This document shows positions 2,869-17,346 of a stretch of 20,716 nt of DNA, piece after piece. Within the stretch, counting starts at the first letter, position 1, and each line of letters opens with the position of its first letter. The position numbers and the translations under genes were made by a program. The stretch comes from a virus. The stretch is taken from positions 1 to 20,716 of the IMG/VR virus record IMGVR_UViG_3300032116_001573; one strand, written 5' to 3'. The notes beneath the pieces are model-generated. The model ran no database searches. It saw nothing but the letters and a program-made list of their open reading frames with translations, and was not told where the DNA came from.

Positions 2869-3057
2869 ATGGAAGACAGCGCGCAGGGCGTCCGCGTCGT
2901 GCGGATTACGCCGTTCATGCTGGACGTAATCGAGGAATGCCCTGACAAGCCGTGGGACAAGTTTCTCGGCACGTTCTCGCGCCGCCGCGACGCGGAACGG
3001 TTTGCGCAAAAGGTGCGAGCCGAGCGTCAACTGTCCCGTTCCTCTGGCCCCGGCTGA
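2869..3057 (+). CDS. Small plus-strand ORF inside the late operon, unknown
   Basis: This 62-codon ORF runs against the surrounding operon. From ATG 2869 it begins 'MEDSAQGVRVVRITPFMLDV' and continues with 'DKPWDKFLGTFSRRRDAERFAQKV', a mixed, helical, soluble-looking sequence. About three quarters of its third codon positions are G or C, higher than in the competing minus-strand frame (2845-3090). TAAGGCGG at 2859-2866 resembles a ribosome site. TATAAG at 2857-2862 could be a -10 element, though no -35 is seen. It is divergent from the lysis cassette and overlaps the end of the small lipoprotein-like gene by 31 bases. I do not recognise the family. It could be an independently transcribed accessory gene, or not a gene. 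Confidence 0.5.
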   Translation: MEDSAQGVRVVRITPFMLDVIEECPDKPWDKFLGTFSRRRDAERFAQKVRAERQLSRSSGPG

Positions 3058-3176
3058 ACCGGCGCGGCAACCGGCGGGGGACAGACCCACACGACAAAGC
3101 GCGTGCCGTTGCTGGCCGTGAACTGTGACGACGCGCAGCCGATGGACAGCAGCATCGCCACGAGAAACTCAGGCAT
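3027..3176 (-). CDS. Small lipoprotein-like ORF, unknown
   Basis: This 49-codon minus-strand ORF begins 'MPEFLVAMLLSIGCASS' and continues 'QFTASNGTRFVVWVCPPP'. It has a hydrophobic N-terminus and a possible lipobox (SIGC), but no basic residue before the hydrophobic stretch, which weakens the lipoprotein reading. Third positions are GC-rich. It fills the otherwise empty gap between the zinc-ribbon gene and the lysis cassette in the operon direction. ATG 3188 is an in-frame alternative start. No Shine-Dalgarno is visible, and the arm of a perfect inverted repeat ends two bases before ATG 3176. Family unknown. Confidence 0.45.
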   Translation of the reverse strand: MPEFLVAMLLSIGCASSQFTASNGTRFVVWVCPPPVAAPVQPGPEERDS

Positions 3177-3178
3177 GG

Positions 3179-3212
3179 GTGTACCCATAGTTTTGCGGAA
3201 CTATGGGTACAC
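3179..3212. promoter_or_regulatory. Perfect 12-bp inverted repeat, operator- or hairpin-like
   Basis: GTGTACCCATAG (3179-3190) and CTATGGGTACAC (3201-3212) are exact reverse complements separated by the ten bases TTTTGCGGAA. The arm centres are 22 bp apart, about two helical turns, which would suit a dimeric DNA-binding protein. As RNA it would form a 12-bp stem covering the start region of the small ORF at 3176. There is no T-run after it on either strand, so it is not a standard intrinsic terminator. It lies in the gap between the zinc-ribbon gene and the small lipoprotein-like gene. Confidence 0.65.
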
Positions 3213-3223
3213 GGGCGGTTGGC

Positions 3224-3424
3224 CTAGGCATCTTCCTCGTCCTCGATGTCGTGGATCTGCACCCTGACGCCCCGGCGCTTGCCGCACTCAGGGCATTTGA
3301 AGAACAACGGCGCCCGCTTGGACCGCTCAAGCCATTGCGTCCCGCACGCCTCGCACTGGACTTGCACGGCAAGCGGAACCTGCACGGCGGCCAGAGCGCG
3401 GGCGCGCAGTTCGCGGCGGTTCAC
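3224..3424 (-). CDS. Small zinc-ribbon protein
   Basis: This encodes a 66-residue protein from GTG 3424, which overlaps the preceding TGA as GTGA. Two CxxC pairs, C24-E-A-C27 and C44-P-E-C47, spaced 16 residues apart, form a zinc-ribbon-like knuckle pair. A basic N-terminal helix (NRRELRARALA) precedes it and an acidic tail (IEDEEDA) ends it. Such small zinc ribbons may bind nucleic acid or protein; the sequence does not say which. It is co-translated with the 104-residue protein and the phosphoesterase upstream. An in-frame ATG at 3478 lies inside the preceding gene and is less likely than the coupled GTG. Confidence 0.7.
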   Translation of the reverse strand: MNRRELRARALAAVQVPLAVQVQCEACGTQWLERSKRAPLFFKCPECGKRRGVRVQIHDIEDEEDA

Positions 3425-3735
3425 GGCGACCGCAGCCTCGCCGCCAGCTTGTGGAACGTCGCCCACACAATGTCGCACTCGCCCGCGTTGGCTTTCTGCT
3501 GCGCGATTTCCTCGCAGAACGCGGCCAGTCCAAACGCATGGGCGTTGAAGTCCGGCATCCGAAAGCCGGCCATCTCCGTCGCCGTCGCGACCACCGCCGC
3601 GTCCCGGTCAAACTCCCACGCCGTCACGGGCGTATGCCGCTGCAACGCGGCCTCATACAGTTCCGCAGTTCGCTCCATGACGCGCGCCCGCCCGTCCTCG
3701 GGTAGCGCCGTAATCGTTTCCGCCAGTGTCGTCAT
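3421..3735 (-). CDS. Hypothetical protein in phosphoesterase-zinc ribbon cluster
   Basis: This encodes 104 residues from ATG 3735, chosen because it overlaps the phosphoesterase stop as ATGA; an in-frame start at 3780 lies inside that gene. The sequence looks soluble and mostly helical, beginning 'MTTLAETITALPEDGRARVM', with no membrane segment or signal peptide. Single cysteines occur near 'AAFCEEI' and 'GECDIV'. I do not recognise the family. Tight coupling to a metallophosphoesterase and a zinc ribbon suggests the three are expressed together. Confidence 0.72.
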   Translation of the reverse strand: MTTLAETITALPEDGRARVMERTAELYEAALQRHTPVTAWEFDRDAAVVATATEMAGFRMPDFNAHAFGLAAFCEEIAQQKANAGECDIVWATFHKLAARLRSP

Positions 3736-13757: not shown

Positions 13758-15160
13758 TAGCTGGCGCCCGGCACCGCATCAAAGTTGGCCGCAATCAGCG
13801 TCGTGCGGACGGGGTCGCTCATCTGAATGCGAAACACCCGCTCGCGCGACGTGCCCAGCCGCAGCCACCGAACCCGCGTGCGATATTGGCCCATGGCGCC
13901 AAGGCTCGCCTCGTGGTCATAGCCGAACGTCCGGCCGCCATCGTCGGAGACGGACAACCAAACCTTCGGCGCCGAGCCCAGCCCGCTAACCGTGCCAACG
14001 CCCGTCTCCATGTCGGCTTCAAGCTTGCTCAGAAACAGCCGCTTGCCTTCGTTGTAGAGCGGCGCGCCAACGGCCGTGCGAATGATGGGGTCGCCGTCCT
14101 CGGTCGGGAACGTCGGGTCAACGACATAAATCCGCCCGTCAACGCTATCCCCGGCCAACGTGGCGCCGCCGAACGACACGCCACCAATCGCCCGCCACGT
14201 GCCGTTGTATTGAACCGGCTCGCTTTCGCGCTCGTGCCAGGACTGCGTCGCCAGGTCATAGACCCACGTCTCGCCCGCGTCGGGGAACGTCAGGACGTAG
14301 AAGGTATGGCCCTCTTGCTCATAAATCCAACCGCGGGAATCGGATACTGTCTCGTAGCCCGCAATCGCCTGCTCAATCGCGTGCGTGCTGATGCGCTGCG
14401 CGGATGCGCCCTCGCCGCGATAGACCACGCGGTTAGCGCCAAGCCAGAACGGGTTGTTATTGTAGTCCGCGATGCTGAACCGCGAGCCGCAGCCCTGCGG
14501 CACCAGCCCCCCCGCGAGTTCCGTGAACGGCACGTCGCCCTGAGTGGACCCGGACCATATCTCGATGCTGTCGGTCCCGAAGAACCACAGGAAGTCGCCG
14601 ATGCGCCGCACCGCCACGATGGCGTCCGGGGCGCTTTCCGCACTCGCGAAGTCAAGCGCGTCATAGGTCGCGGCGTCGTTCAGCGCGGACCAGAAAAACG
14701 ACGTGCTATCAGGCCGCGAGAACACCATGAACCCGTTGAGGTAAGCCACGGTCGCCGCGCCGGGGAAATCCGCGTCCGTGATCTGCGTCAATGTTGCAGG
14801 TGTTGCAATCCACGCCTGTTGCGTCTCGGGGACCACCACAACCATCTGCGTCCCGTTGTTCGCCATGCTGACCGCGCCGCCGGCCGCCAGCGTGCCGAGC
14901 GCGGTATAGGCGCCGGACGTGTCCACCGCATACACCGTGTCATCGGCCACGATGTAGCAGAGGTTGCCCATAACCTGCGCGCCGCGGAACGGTCCCGCCG
15001 GCAGGGTCGTGAACACGTCGAGCCCCGGCGTGGGGATCAGAATGACAGGGGCTTTGGCGTCGCGAGGTTCTTGCTCGGCGCACCAATTAATTATGCGCTG
15101 GGCAGAAACGGGAAGGCTACGGTGGCGATACGATTGGAGCGCCATGGGGATGCGCGGCAT
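13757..15160 (-). CDS. P22 gp10-like tail accessory / packaged-DNA stabilisation protein
   Basis: This encodes 467 residues, close to the roughly 470 of P22 gp10. The beta-propeller-like sequence opens 'MPRIPMALQSYRHRSLPVSAQRIINW' in part (start and 'INWCAEQEP' box) and contains 'LIPTPGLDVFTTLPAGPFRG', 'FFGTDSIEIWSGS' and 'WVYDLATQSWHER', all typical of the P22 gp10/Phage_stabilise family. Such proteins close the portal vertex after DNA packaging and hold the tailspikes. ATG 15160 is preferred: GGAGG lies 13 bases upstream, inside the end of the HNH gene. GTG 15172 would be almost on top of that site, and ATG 15145 is further away. The start codon lies in one copy of a 13-bp repeat flanking the HNH insertion. 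Confidence 0.87.
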   Translation of the reverse strand: MPRIPMALQSYRHRSLPVSAQRIINWCAEQEPRDAKAPVILIPTPGLDVFTTLPAGPFRGAQVMGNLCYIVADDTVYAVDTSGAYTALGTLAAGGAVSMANNGTQMVVVVPETQQAWIATPATLTQITDADFPGAATVAYLNGFMVFSRPDSTSFFWSALNDAATYDALDFASAESAPDAIVAVRRIGDFLWFFGTDSIEIWSGSTQGDVPFTELAGGLVPQGCGSRFSIADYNNNPFWLGANRVVYRGEGASAQRISTHAIEQAIAGYETVSDSRGWIYEQEGHTFYVLTFPDAGETWVYDLATQSWHERESEPVQYNGTWRAIGGVSFGGATLAGDSVDGRIYVVDPTFPTEDGDPIIRTAVGAPLYNEGKRLFLSKLEADMETGVGTVSGLGSAPKVWLSVSDDGGRTFGYDHEASLGAMGQYRTRVRWLRLGTSRERVFRIQMSDPVRTTLIAANFDAVPGAS

Positions 15161-15692
15161 TGTGCGGAACACACCTCCATGTCTTGCCGGTTGCGATGTT
15201 GTGAACGGTGGCCAAGTGCAAGCCCACGTCAGCCGCGATTACGCGAAGAAGTTCGCCGCGAGCGCGTCGCTTGCGTATTTCCAAGACAACTGCGGGGTTT
15301 ATCTTCGCGCAGTGGTGCTTTTCGCCTGCGGGATATGTGTAGTGCTTCTTGCTGTTTCTGACGTTCTCGCGGCGCGTAACCCACCGCAGGTTTTCCGGGC
15401 GGTTGTCGTCGCGAACGTTGTTGATGTGATCCACTTCGTGCCGCGGCGAAGGCGGCAAGCCGTGGAATGCGAGGCATATCAACTGATGCACCGGGCGCCC
15501 TGCGCGCCGGGGCTTTCCAACTTCCGGCGGGCAGTCAGCGTCGGCAATGGCGCCGCACTGCATGTAACCGCACGGATTCCTAAACGACTTCAACCGCAGC
15601 GGCGGGTTAAGCGGTTTCTTGTAGTGCCACAGCCGGTAAACGTGTCCGTCTTCGCCGGCCAGATAGTTGCTGTATCCAGGGATCTTCCGCAT
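15117..15692 (-). CDS. HNH homing endonuclease (NUMOD4-HNH-HTH)
   Basis: This encodes 191 residues. Residues 1-40 form a NUMOD4-like DNA-binding motif ('IPGYSNYLAGEDGHVYRLW'). The HNH fold follows at about 66-115 with H69, D88-H89, N97 and N101-L102 ('VDHINNVRDDNRPENLRWVT'). A helix-turn-helix lies at about 128-170 and ends 'GKTWRCV', the usual end of this family. The last 14 residues (178-191) are read out of frame through the start of the gp10-like gene, so the ORF runs past its natural end into target DNA. Only a weak CAGGG lies at the ATG. It would cut an uninterrupted phage allele so that the gene is copied in during repair. It is free-standing: no room exists for a group I intron core. 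Confidence 0.9.
   Translation of the reverse strand: MRKIPGYSNYLAGEDGHVYRLWHYKKPLNPPLRLKSFRNPCGYMQCGAIADADCPPEVGKPRRAGRPVHQLICLAFHGLPPSPRHEVDHINNVRDDNRPENLRWVTRRENVRNSKKHYTYPAGEKHHCAKINPAVVLEIRKRRARGELLRVIAADVGLHLATVHNIATGKTWRCVPHNAAHPHGAPIVSPP
15148..15160 (-). repeat. 13-bp direct repeat, downstream copy at gp10 start
   Basis: GGATGCGCGGCAT on the plus strand, which is ATGCCGCGCATCC on the coding strand, covers the start codon of the gp10-like gene. It is identical to 15742-15754, and the flanking base differs on both sides. The two copies bracket the HNH gene. Confidence 0.9.
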
Positions 15693-15741
15693 CCCTGATA
15701 CTTAGTGTTTTTCGTGCTAGTTTCCAGTATCTACCGGCACA

Positions 15742-15754
15742 GGATGCGCGGCAT
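15742..15754 (-). repeat. 13-bp direct repeat, upstream (orphaned) copy
   Basis: This copy is identical to 15148-15160, 594 bp away. Its ATG (15754-15752) shares an A with the TGA of the glycine-rich gene (TGATG), which was probably the original start junction of the gp10-like gene. Translation from it now stops after seven codons (MPRILCR, TAG at 15733-15731). Confidence 0.88.
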
Positions 15755-17346
15755 CAGCCCATGCTCTGGTTCTGTTCAGCCTGCGCGAAGTAGTTCTGAC
15801 CGCTCGTGAAGTTCTGCTGCGCGGTGCCCATAAGTTGCTGCAACGCCGCGTCCTGACTGACCGCCTGACCCTGCGGCACGAACAGCCCTTGGCGAACAAG
15901 GTCGTCAAAGGCGTAATCGAGCATATATTGCCCGACCGTCAGGTTAGATTGCGGGAACAGGCCGCTAAATGCGCCGTTGAACGGCTGGTATTGCGCGTTG
16001 AGGTCCGTGCCGAAGAACCGGCTGGGGTTGTCGGCGTAGTCGTCGCCCGCCTTGTAGAAGTAGCCTTGGCCCGGCGCCGTCATGCTATCGCTGGGCATGA
16101 ACTGCCCCACGGCGTAGCCCGCGCCCACCGCGGTCGGGTTGACCGCGTAGCCCTGCGCCGCCGCCATCGCCATAAGCTGCTGCTGGAATGCGTTGGCGAA
16201 GTCCATGTTCGCCTGACCGCCGTTGTCCTGACCGCTGAACGATTGAAACCCGAAGCCGCCGGTCAAGCCGGTCGGCATGGTGCCGCCGGATGCGATAAAG
16301 GAATTCTGCACTTGGTTCGCGAGTTCGGGCGACCACGTGAAACCTGCATTCCAGTTGGCGCCCACGCTTTCCTGCGGGCCGAACTGGCCGCCGATGGCGC
16401 CGCCAAGCTGCGCGCCGAGGAATGCGCCGATGGGGCCAAGGAACAGGCCGCCGACAGCCGAGCCGAGCCCGGAACCGATCTGCTGTCCCATGGGGTCGCG
16501 GTCGCCGCTGTATCCAGCCTGCCCGGCGACGTAGTTGCCAAGGAGGCCGCCGCCGAGCGTGCCGAGGCCGCCGAGCAAGTCGAAGCCGCCGCCAAGCAGC
16601 CCGGAGCCCATGACGCCTTCAAGGCCGCCAGTGGCCGCGCCGGCAACGTCGTCAACGAGGTCCGCGCCAAGCGCCGCAGCCGTGCCACCGCCGTCCATGA
16701 CGGTCTGCCCACCCGTCGCAAACTGCGACAGATCAATAGGCTGCGGCGACCACAAAACTTGATTGCCCGCCGAGGCGCCCCAGCCGGCCGGCAAAACCGC
16801 CGAGCCGAACTCAGCGCCGCCGAACGGCACAATAGGAAGCCCATACAGGCCCGTCAGGCCGCCAGCGGCACCACCGCCACCGCCGCCGCTGCCCGTGCCC
16901 GCCAGGCCGCTCGTAGAGCCCTGCGTGGCCGCTTCTGGCGCAAGCGCGCTGATCGGGTCAATCGGCGCCCCCGCAGCCGGTGCCGCAGCGCCCGCGCCGA
17001 GCGACGTGCTGCCCTGCGTGATGCCCGAAACCGCCGTGCCGGAACCGCCGAGCAAGCCGCCCAACTGCCGGATTAGGTTCGGGTTCGCCAACGCCGCAAG
17101 CAGCCCCGCGCCGCCGCCAATCGCGCCGAGGCTGCCGCCGCCGCCGCCGCCAATCGGAACAACAACGCCGTCATCATCATCCGGCGGCATAATCGGAGAC
17201 ACGCCGCCGCCGACGTTCGTCACCGGCCCGCCGCCGCCGCCAGTCATCCGCTCGGGACGATAGCGGCTGTCGGCAAGCCCAGGCTCGTAGGACAGCCCGC
17301 GCTGATAGCGGGACGAGGTTCGCGGTGCAGCGCGAGTGCCGCTCAT
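15754..17346 (-). CDS. Glycine-rich glycine-zipper virion protein, unknown role
   Basis: This encodes 530 residues from ATG 17346, set by an ATGA overlap with the gp4-like stop. Residues 30-165 are low complexity with several polyglycine runs and an aspartate run (56-59). Residues 235-325 contain hydrophobic Gly-rich segments, including a glycine zipper at about 291-322 ('GSAVGGLFLGPIGAFLGAQL'). Such zippers pack membrane helices or form pores. The C-terminal 200 residues are less repetitive and rich in Gln, Asn, Phe and Tyr. P22 has no gene of this kind between genes 4 and 10. Candidate roles are an ejected pore-forming protein or a tail component. No family is recognised. Confidence 0.75.
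   Translation of the reverse strand: MSGTRAAPRTSSRYQRGLSYEPGLADSRYRPERMTGGGGGPVTNVGGGVSPIMPPDDDDGVVVPIGGGGGGSLGAIGGGAGLLAALANPNLIRQLGGLLGGSGTAVSGITQGSTSLGAGAAAPAAGAPIDPISALAPEAATQGSTSGLAGTGSGGGGGGAAGGLTGLYGLPIVPFGGAEFGSAVLPAGWGASAGNQVLWSPQPIDLSQFATGGQTVMDGGGTAAALGADLVDDVAGAATGGLEGVMGSGLLGGGFDLLGGLGTLGGGLLGNYVAGQAGYSGDRDPMGQQIGSGLGSAVGGLFLGPIGAFLGAQLGGAIGGQFGPQESVGANWNAGFTWSPELANQVQNSFIASGGTMPTGLTGGFGFQSFSGQDNGGQANMDFANAFQQQLMAMAAAQGYAVNPTAVGAGYAVGQFMPSDSMTAPGQGYFYKAGDDYADNPSRFFGTDLNAQYQPFNGAFSGLFPQSNLTVGQYMLDYAFDDLVRQGLFVPQGQAVSQDAALQQLMGTAQQNFTSGQNYFAQAEQNQSMG

Follow-up and report, generated by a model that had tools for sequence, protein, structure and literature searches.

An HNH homing-type endonuclease gene at the start of a phage gp10-like head-closure gene, with an orphan start codon and a candidate supplied gene end

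How can a homing endonuclease gene occupy the very start of a virion gene and leave that gene intact? The question is raised by the DNA analysed here, positions 1 to 20,716 of IMG/VR virus record IMGVR_UViG_3300032116_001573 (20,716 nucleotides; hereafter the window), in which an HNH gene lies between a glycine-rich gene and a gp10-like gene (Table 1). The first-pass annotation had read this arrangement as an insertion that duplicated the gp10 start, and most of its description can be followed directly in the sequence: a perfect 13-bp direct repeat, an upstream copy that forms TGATG with the preceding stop codon (TGA/ATG overlap at 15754) and opens seven codons before TAG (ATG CCG CGC ATC CTG TGC CGG TAG), a downstream copy that starts the gp10-like gene, and a GGAGG inside the HNH frame. 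The exact 13-mer occurs at only these two places in the window, and shuffling of the flanks never produced a 13-bp flank repeat (0/300). Stop/start overlap also proves to be a habit of this operon, as neighbouring junctions in the ORF table overlap by 1 or 4 nt. The repeat copies do not enclose the whole HNH gene: its frame runs on beyond the insert, and its stop codon falls 44 nt within gp10. Outside the HNH frame the insert comprises only 49 of its 581 nt, and neither a promoter nor a terminator was found inside these 581 bp.

Table 1. Features around the gp10 junction of the window.
Feature	Coordinates	Strand	Basis
Glycine-rich gene upstream of the insert, 530 aa	15754..17346	-	sequence
Orphan 13-bp repeat copy, ATGCCGCGCATCC	15742..15754	-	ATG overlaps TGA of upstream gene
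Orphan 7-codon frame, ATG..TAG, left by displaced start	15731..15754	-	sequence
Inserted DNA between the repeat copies, 581 bp, termini TGTGC / GCACA	15161..15741	-	sequence, relatives
Hairpin GTATCAGGGAT..ATCCCTGGATAC, predicted to bury the HNH start codon along with its sole SD-like bases	15674..15703	-	folding, z -2.5
HNH_3 homing-type endonuclease gene, 191 aa, C-terminal GKTWR motif	15117..15692	-	profile match
GGAGG, Shine-Dalgarno candidate of gp10, in HNH codons TGG AGG (= W R)	15174..15178	-	sequence, anti-SD energy
Second 13-bp repeat copy, ATGCCGCGCATCC, = gp10 start	15148..15160	-	sequence
First 96 nt of gp10, candidate supplied 5' end	15065..15160	-	75% identity to L005 vs 92% in rest
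gp10-like head-closure (Hc3) gene, 467 aa	13757..15160	-	PHROG 578, Pfam

The gp10-like protein matches PHROG 578, head closure Hc3 (E 5e-119), and Pfam Phage_stabilise; it had been called an essential tail gene, and the narrow tail role has to give way to that of a head-closure or tail-accessory gene. IMG/VR was searched with gp10 and yielded four contigs. Three of them (L002-L004, from different metagenomes) carry the window's occupied allele with 0-2 differences over 6-7 kb, so the window is not an assembly error. The fourth, L005, is the one empty relative known for this lineage. It has no HNH gene, its gp10 is 97% identical to the window's in amino acids, and its junction GGTTAATGCCTCGCATCCCC holds a single 13-bp-type copy with a one-base stop/start overlap, TAATG. 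An HNH-less allele with a single copy, sought among related phages, therefore exists, and it supports both the insertion history and the orphan start that had been proposed. Relatives of the window's gp10 were absent among genome contigs, and the best DNA match to described phages covers 2% of the region at 78-79%. The HNH product matches HNH_3 (E 5e-16) and has its own intact reading frame; the full-length relatives found for it beyond the window's allele are only ~35% identical or less. The sole solved structure matched by its sequence is PDB 1U3E (E 3e-4), listed as an HNH homing endonuclease, which we take to be I-HmuI. I-HmuI is intron-encoded, so the two have the sequence match in common and differ in this respect. 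The intact HNH_3 frame, together with occupied and empty alleles in near relatives, points to a free-standing HNH homing endonuclease gene.

Compared with L005, the window's gp10 differs by 25% in its first 96 nt and by 8% after them (change-point at nt 96, permutation p 5e-4), and 6 of the 14 amino acid differences fall in the first 29 residues. In control pairs the better conserved part of gp10 is its first 90 nt (median +5 points), whereas the window stands at -13, a 5' deficit more extreme than in all 111 control pairs. It is this divergence shift at nt 96, seen in one background, that marks a candidate supplied end in the window. The 75-76% identity to L005 continues upstream through the whole glycine-rich gene, however, in a block spanning 3.9 kb, so that one ordinary recombination event with its breakpoint at gp10 nt ~96 is compatible as well. 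Both repeat copies, identical over 13 nt, differ from L005 at one site. An abnormal first 90 nt of gp10 was not seen in the other occupied metagenomic loci, most of whose nearest empty relatives are too distant, with the exception of L077, L078 and L088, where the first 30 nt are divergent. The divergence beside the HNH gene would fit a supplied or co-converted gp10 5' end, the 13-nt orphan then being the start that was displaced.

The same architecture, here with an end that is clearly recoded, is present in Salmonella phage UPF_BP1 (P22-like) and elements of its type. In UPF_BP1 the native gp10 is interrupted at nt 94, followed by an HNH gene and then a complete gp10. The orphan 5' piece is shared, letter for letter, with ~50 Salmonella phage records; the first ~124 nt of the complete gene match no other phage record at the DNA level and, set against HK620, keep 33 of 41 residues with 22 synonymous and 8 other codon changes. 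Matches that span 80% or more of the cassette occur in 18 E. coli genomes, and two prophages were read in detail. Between UPF_BP1 and these two prophages the recoded stretch is identical at 123-124 of 124 positions, against 77-80 of 124 to native sequences. The prophage orphans (nt 1-94; annotated by NCBI as a gp10 pseudogene lacking the C-terminus) match HK620 at 91-92 of 94 positions and UPF_BP1 at 78-79 of 94, and the gp10 bodies of UPF_BP1 and the prophages differ as much as native alleles do. Since the recoded end is constant across backgrounds, and orphan and body follow the recipient, the mobile unit is the HNH gene plus the rewritten gene end. This suggests that UPF_BP1-type elements home and rescue, like the yeast WHO elements. 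The same facts may also be worded as homing in which the donor was distant, the flanks were co-converted and the junction on one side was illegitimate; under either wording the outcome is a replaced gene end travelling with the HNH gene.

A mirror form is found at the other end of gp10. In HZ41, L191 and L192 ~300 nt at the 3' end of gp10 are rewritten and accompanied by an HNH gene; this end is 98% identical between HZ41 and L191 and 59% between HZ41 and HK620, while the HZ41 gp10 body is 95% identical to both L191 and HK620. In phage 683R2 an HNH-AP2 frame ends in AGGATTGAGTAATG, which looks like a displaced native gp10 tail. Thus a supplied gene end that differs from the native one and travels with the element occurs in the UPF_BP1 and HZ41 types, and a displaced native gene end beside the element in the window (13-nt orphan) and the UPF_BP1 type (94-nt orphan).

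The junction before gp10 is a recurrent landing site of HNH genes. Among gp10-like loci gathered from phages and IMG/VR, 138 distinct junctions were scored, 127 of which have no HNH gene by search (83 of the 127 show a one-base overlap). An HNH gene abuts the gp10 start at 12 distinct loci, one of which (L077) lies outside the 138. The types include a sense HNH_3 with a C-terminal helix-turn-helix-like end (the window type), a sense zinc-loop HNH, an antisense HNH_3-AP2 and another antisense type. Searching 100 whole records with the HNH_3 profile gave 28 matches, 12 of them abutting gp10 (two of the 12 being near-duplicates), a share that is not an unbiased rate because occupied loci were deliberately included in the 100 records. 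At 5 of the 12 occupied loci an orphan start remains, its codon overlapping the stop of the upstream gene (TRATG; p 5e-4). A long flank repeat is absent from the other 11, bar a 10-bp repeat in L078 (p 0.013), so duplication is not the regular outcome. The notion of an HNH-only hot spot was rejected: other cargo genes have also inserted at this junction, and permissiveness as well as targeting may therefore explain the recurrence.

From these comparisons we consider it fairly probable that the HNH gene invaded the 5' end of gp10, broke up the native gene behind nt 13 and made it complete again with a gp10 5' end of its own. In detail, a free-standing homing endonuclease gene would have entered the 5' end of gp10 (Hc3), a gene taken to be essential, and the element would have restored the interrupted gene from the far side with its own start codon and probably the first ~95 nt. 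The last conserved HNH codons would encode a Shine-Dalgarno sequence (TGGAGG), and the displaced native start would stay upstream as the 13-nt orphan. The cut site is presumably missing from the supplied end, and this would render the occupied allele immune; a phage that lost the element would also forfeit the ribosome site of gp10. We infer that the enzyme cuts at the junction, that the window's 5' end came with the element, that gp10 is translated from the new site and that the occupied allele is immune. The 13-bp duplication may accordingly represent a displaced native start plus a supplied copy (home and rescue) and not a simple target duplication. The window is thus probably a short version of a home-and-rescue element, although the 13-bp repeat alone is also compatible with plain duplication. 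Our judgement is evenly divided on the wider proposition that phages carry a distinct natural class of home-and-rescue elements, each combining an HNH gene with a recoded end (5' or 3') of an essential target and with a ribosome site encoded in the conserved C-terminal W-[RG] motif, and that the window is a compact member of it.

One competing account is ordinary homing or end-joining in which a short stretch of the target was duplicated: repair of a staggered break would have duplicated 13 bp, and the divergent gp10 5' end would be part of an unrelated mosaic block or co-conversion tract. The identity of the two copies with their one shared difference from L005, the extension of the 76% block over 3.9 kb upstream and the absence of a long orphan from the window all agree with it. 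Set against this, the breakpoint at gp10 nt ~96 adjoins the insert, the divergent stretch covers a part of gp10 that is normally better conserved (control median and window differing in sign, as given above), and flank repeats of such length are missing at the other 11 occupied loci; we hold this account to be doubtful, if a serious contender. A transposon-like element, with its 13-bp target duplication and short inverted termini carried by the HNH gene, would explain why TGTGC and GCACA lie exactly inside the repeats (p ~0.001 versus random 581-bp pairs, in a post hoc test). Yet these termini measure only 5 bp, the frame is HNH_3 with no transposase frame present, the insert does not include the HNH stop codon, no second copy of the inserted element was found and the other occupied gp10 loci have no such flank repeat, all of which makes a transposon very improbable. 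Also, phage group I introns often contain HNH genes, and a direct repeat at the edges would permit a clean junction if a self-splicing intron with an HNH gene were spliced to restore gp10. With the HNH frame taking up all but 49 nt of the insert, no Rfam intron match in the insert, and gp10 intact downstream so that splicing is not needed, this scenario has next to no probability.

A further alternative concerns expression only and is compatible with the insertion history. The proposal that the HNH frame supplies the gp10 ribosome site, already made in the first-pass annotation, draws support from several sides. Ahead of gp10 the anti-SD energy reaches -10.6 kcal/mol in the window, compared with -2.7 in L005. 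SD motifs precede 8 of 11 occupied gp10 starts, against 23 of 127 empty ones (Fisher p 3e-4), and SD energy is stronger at occupied starts (p 0.0015), a difference that stems mostly from the window and the gp4-type clade (DFGFVG clade alone, p 0.35). HNH homologues with a gene start 3-14 nt downstream have TGGAGG or TGGGGG at the C-terminal W in 4 of 5 cases, versus 3 of 34 otherwise (p 0.002; few loci, downstream starts chosen without regard to SD), and in phage HZ41 the W-R codons at the homologous place, TGGAGG, stop 7 nt short of gp26, the tail-needle gene. Alternatively there would be no effective new site: gp10 would be translated via HNH translation and reinitiation, with GGAGG a by-product of the W-R codons. 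The spacing of 13 nt from GGAGG to the gp10 ATG, long for a Shine-Dalgarno sequence, would agree with this, as would the folding of GGAGG and the gp10 AUG into one hairpin (-17.9 kcal/mol; not significant, z -1.0), and a purine stretch is expected anywhere TGG AGG occurs. Reinitiation is nevertheless rather unlikely in our view: the HNH stop, 44 nt inside gp10, is far for backward reinitiation, SD-forming AGG or GGG after W goes with a close downstream start, and SD is stronger at occupied than at empty starts. With GGAGG and AUG predicted to share a hairpin, the candidate ribosome site supplied by the HNH frame may be accessible only while HNH is translated.

These loci show how a selfish endonuclease gene can sit, with neither intron nor intein, on a conserved end of an essential virion gene, through a rewritten gene end plus start signals that the element supplies; this suggests a route of invasion that does not kill the phage. 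If true, such elements would be the natural equivalent, in phages, of home-and-rescue gene drives, able to land harmlessly at the start codon of an essential gene. Prophages of the UPF_BP1 and HZ41 types have many empty relatives; they are ready experimental systems and offer a clean route to ask whether an embedded ribosome site keeps a homing gene locked into its phage operon.

In the open-access literature we found no account of phage homing genes that supply a 5' end or embed a ribosome site; new here is an HNH gene with a recoded 124-nt gp10 5' end interrupting native gp10, in UPF_BP1 and E. coli prophages. In T4, free-standing seg/mob homing genes embed promoters for downstream essential genes (PMC2988022). 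There too the element's coding region holds the expression signal of an essential neighbour, favouring retention; the signals are promoters and not, as in the window, a putative ribosome site, and the part of that account considered here describes no supplied gene end for T4. HEG-islands likewise place homing genes beside essential virion genes, exchangeable at one place, and orphan or recoded gene ends do not appear in the part of the source drawn on (PMC10448857). Closer in outcome are fungal mitochondrial mobile ORFs, which make gene hybrids (Allomyces atp6; Glomus atp6/atp9/cox2/nad3), carry a foreign gene end and leave the displaced native end as an orphan, but at C-terminal ends and with LAGLIDADG or GIY-YIG enzymes (PMC3630166). 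In the yeast WHO elements an endonuclease gene lies beside an essential gene, homing replaces one gene end without any need for splicing, and the occupied allele resists cleavage (PMC7282813), much as we propose for the phage elements. The WHO endonuclease is intein-derived and acts on the FBA1 3' end in a eukaryote (PMC7282813), whereas the phage case would involve an HNH enzyme in a phage operon, a 5' end including start codon and ribosome site, and a resistance that is putative.

The gp4/gp10 junction is a general cargo site, since genes other than HNH genes are also inserted there (in the gp10 loci L026, L070, L116, L121-L124, L075 and L089). Locus L030 has an antisense HNH-AP2 gene there, and the HNH-less junction of locus L029 retains a stretch of about 20 nt that resembles this gene's 3' end; the stretch is possibly a scar left by a lost element.

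Phage vB_EcoP-683R2 encodes an HNH_3-AP2 protein under the annotation "endolysin", and a displaced gp10 3' tail is apparently fused onto the end of this frame. The prophage of E. coli NZ_CP053079 (L190) carries a UPF-type cassette at the gp10 5' end and an HZ41-like NUMOD4 gene directly after gp10. In locus L077, an ATA codon preceded by AGGAG seems to be the gp10 start, and would be either a non-canonical start or a sequencing error.

Coordinates of features in the window and in compared gp10 loci
Feature	Record	Position	Strand
HNH-AP2-like stretch	L029	2960-3000	
HNH_3-AP2 gene	L188 (vB_EcoP-683R2)	2965-3459	
ATA codon	L077	about 1407	
Insert ending in TGTGC/GCACA	window	15161-15741	
Start-codon hairpin	window	15674-15703	-

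Inverted repeats form the ends of the window's insert (p about 0.001). A strong hairpin (z -2.5) encloses the HNH start codon and recalls mobE and I-TevI, whose ribosome sites are sequestered by hairpins.
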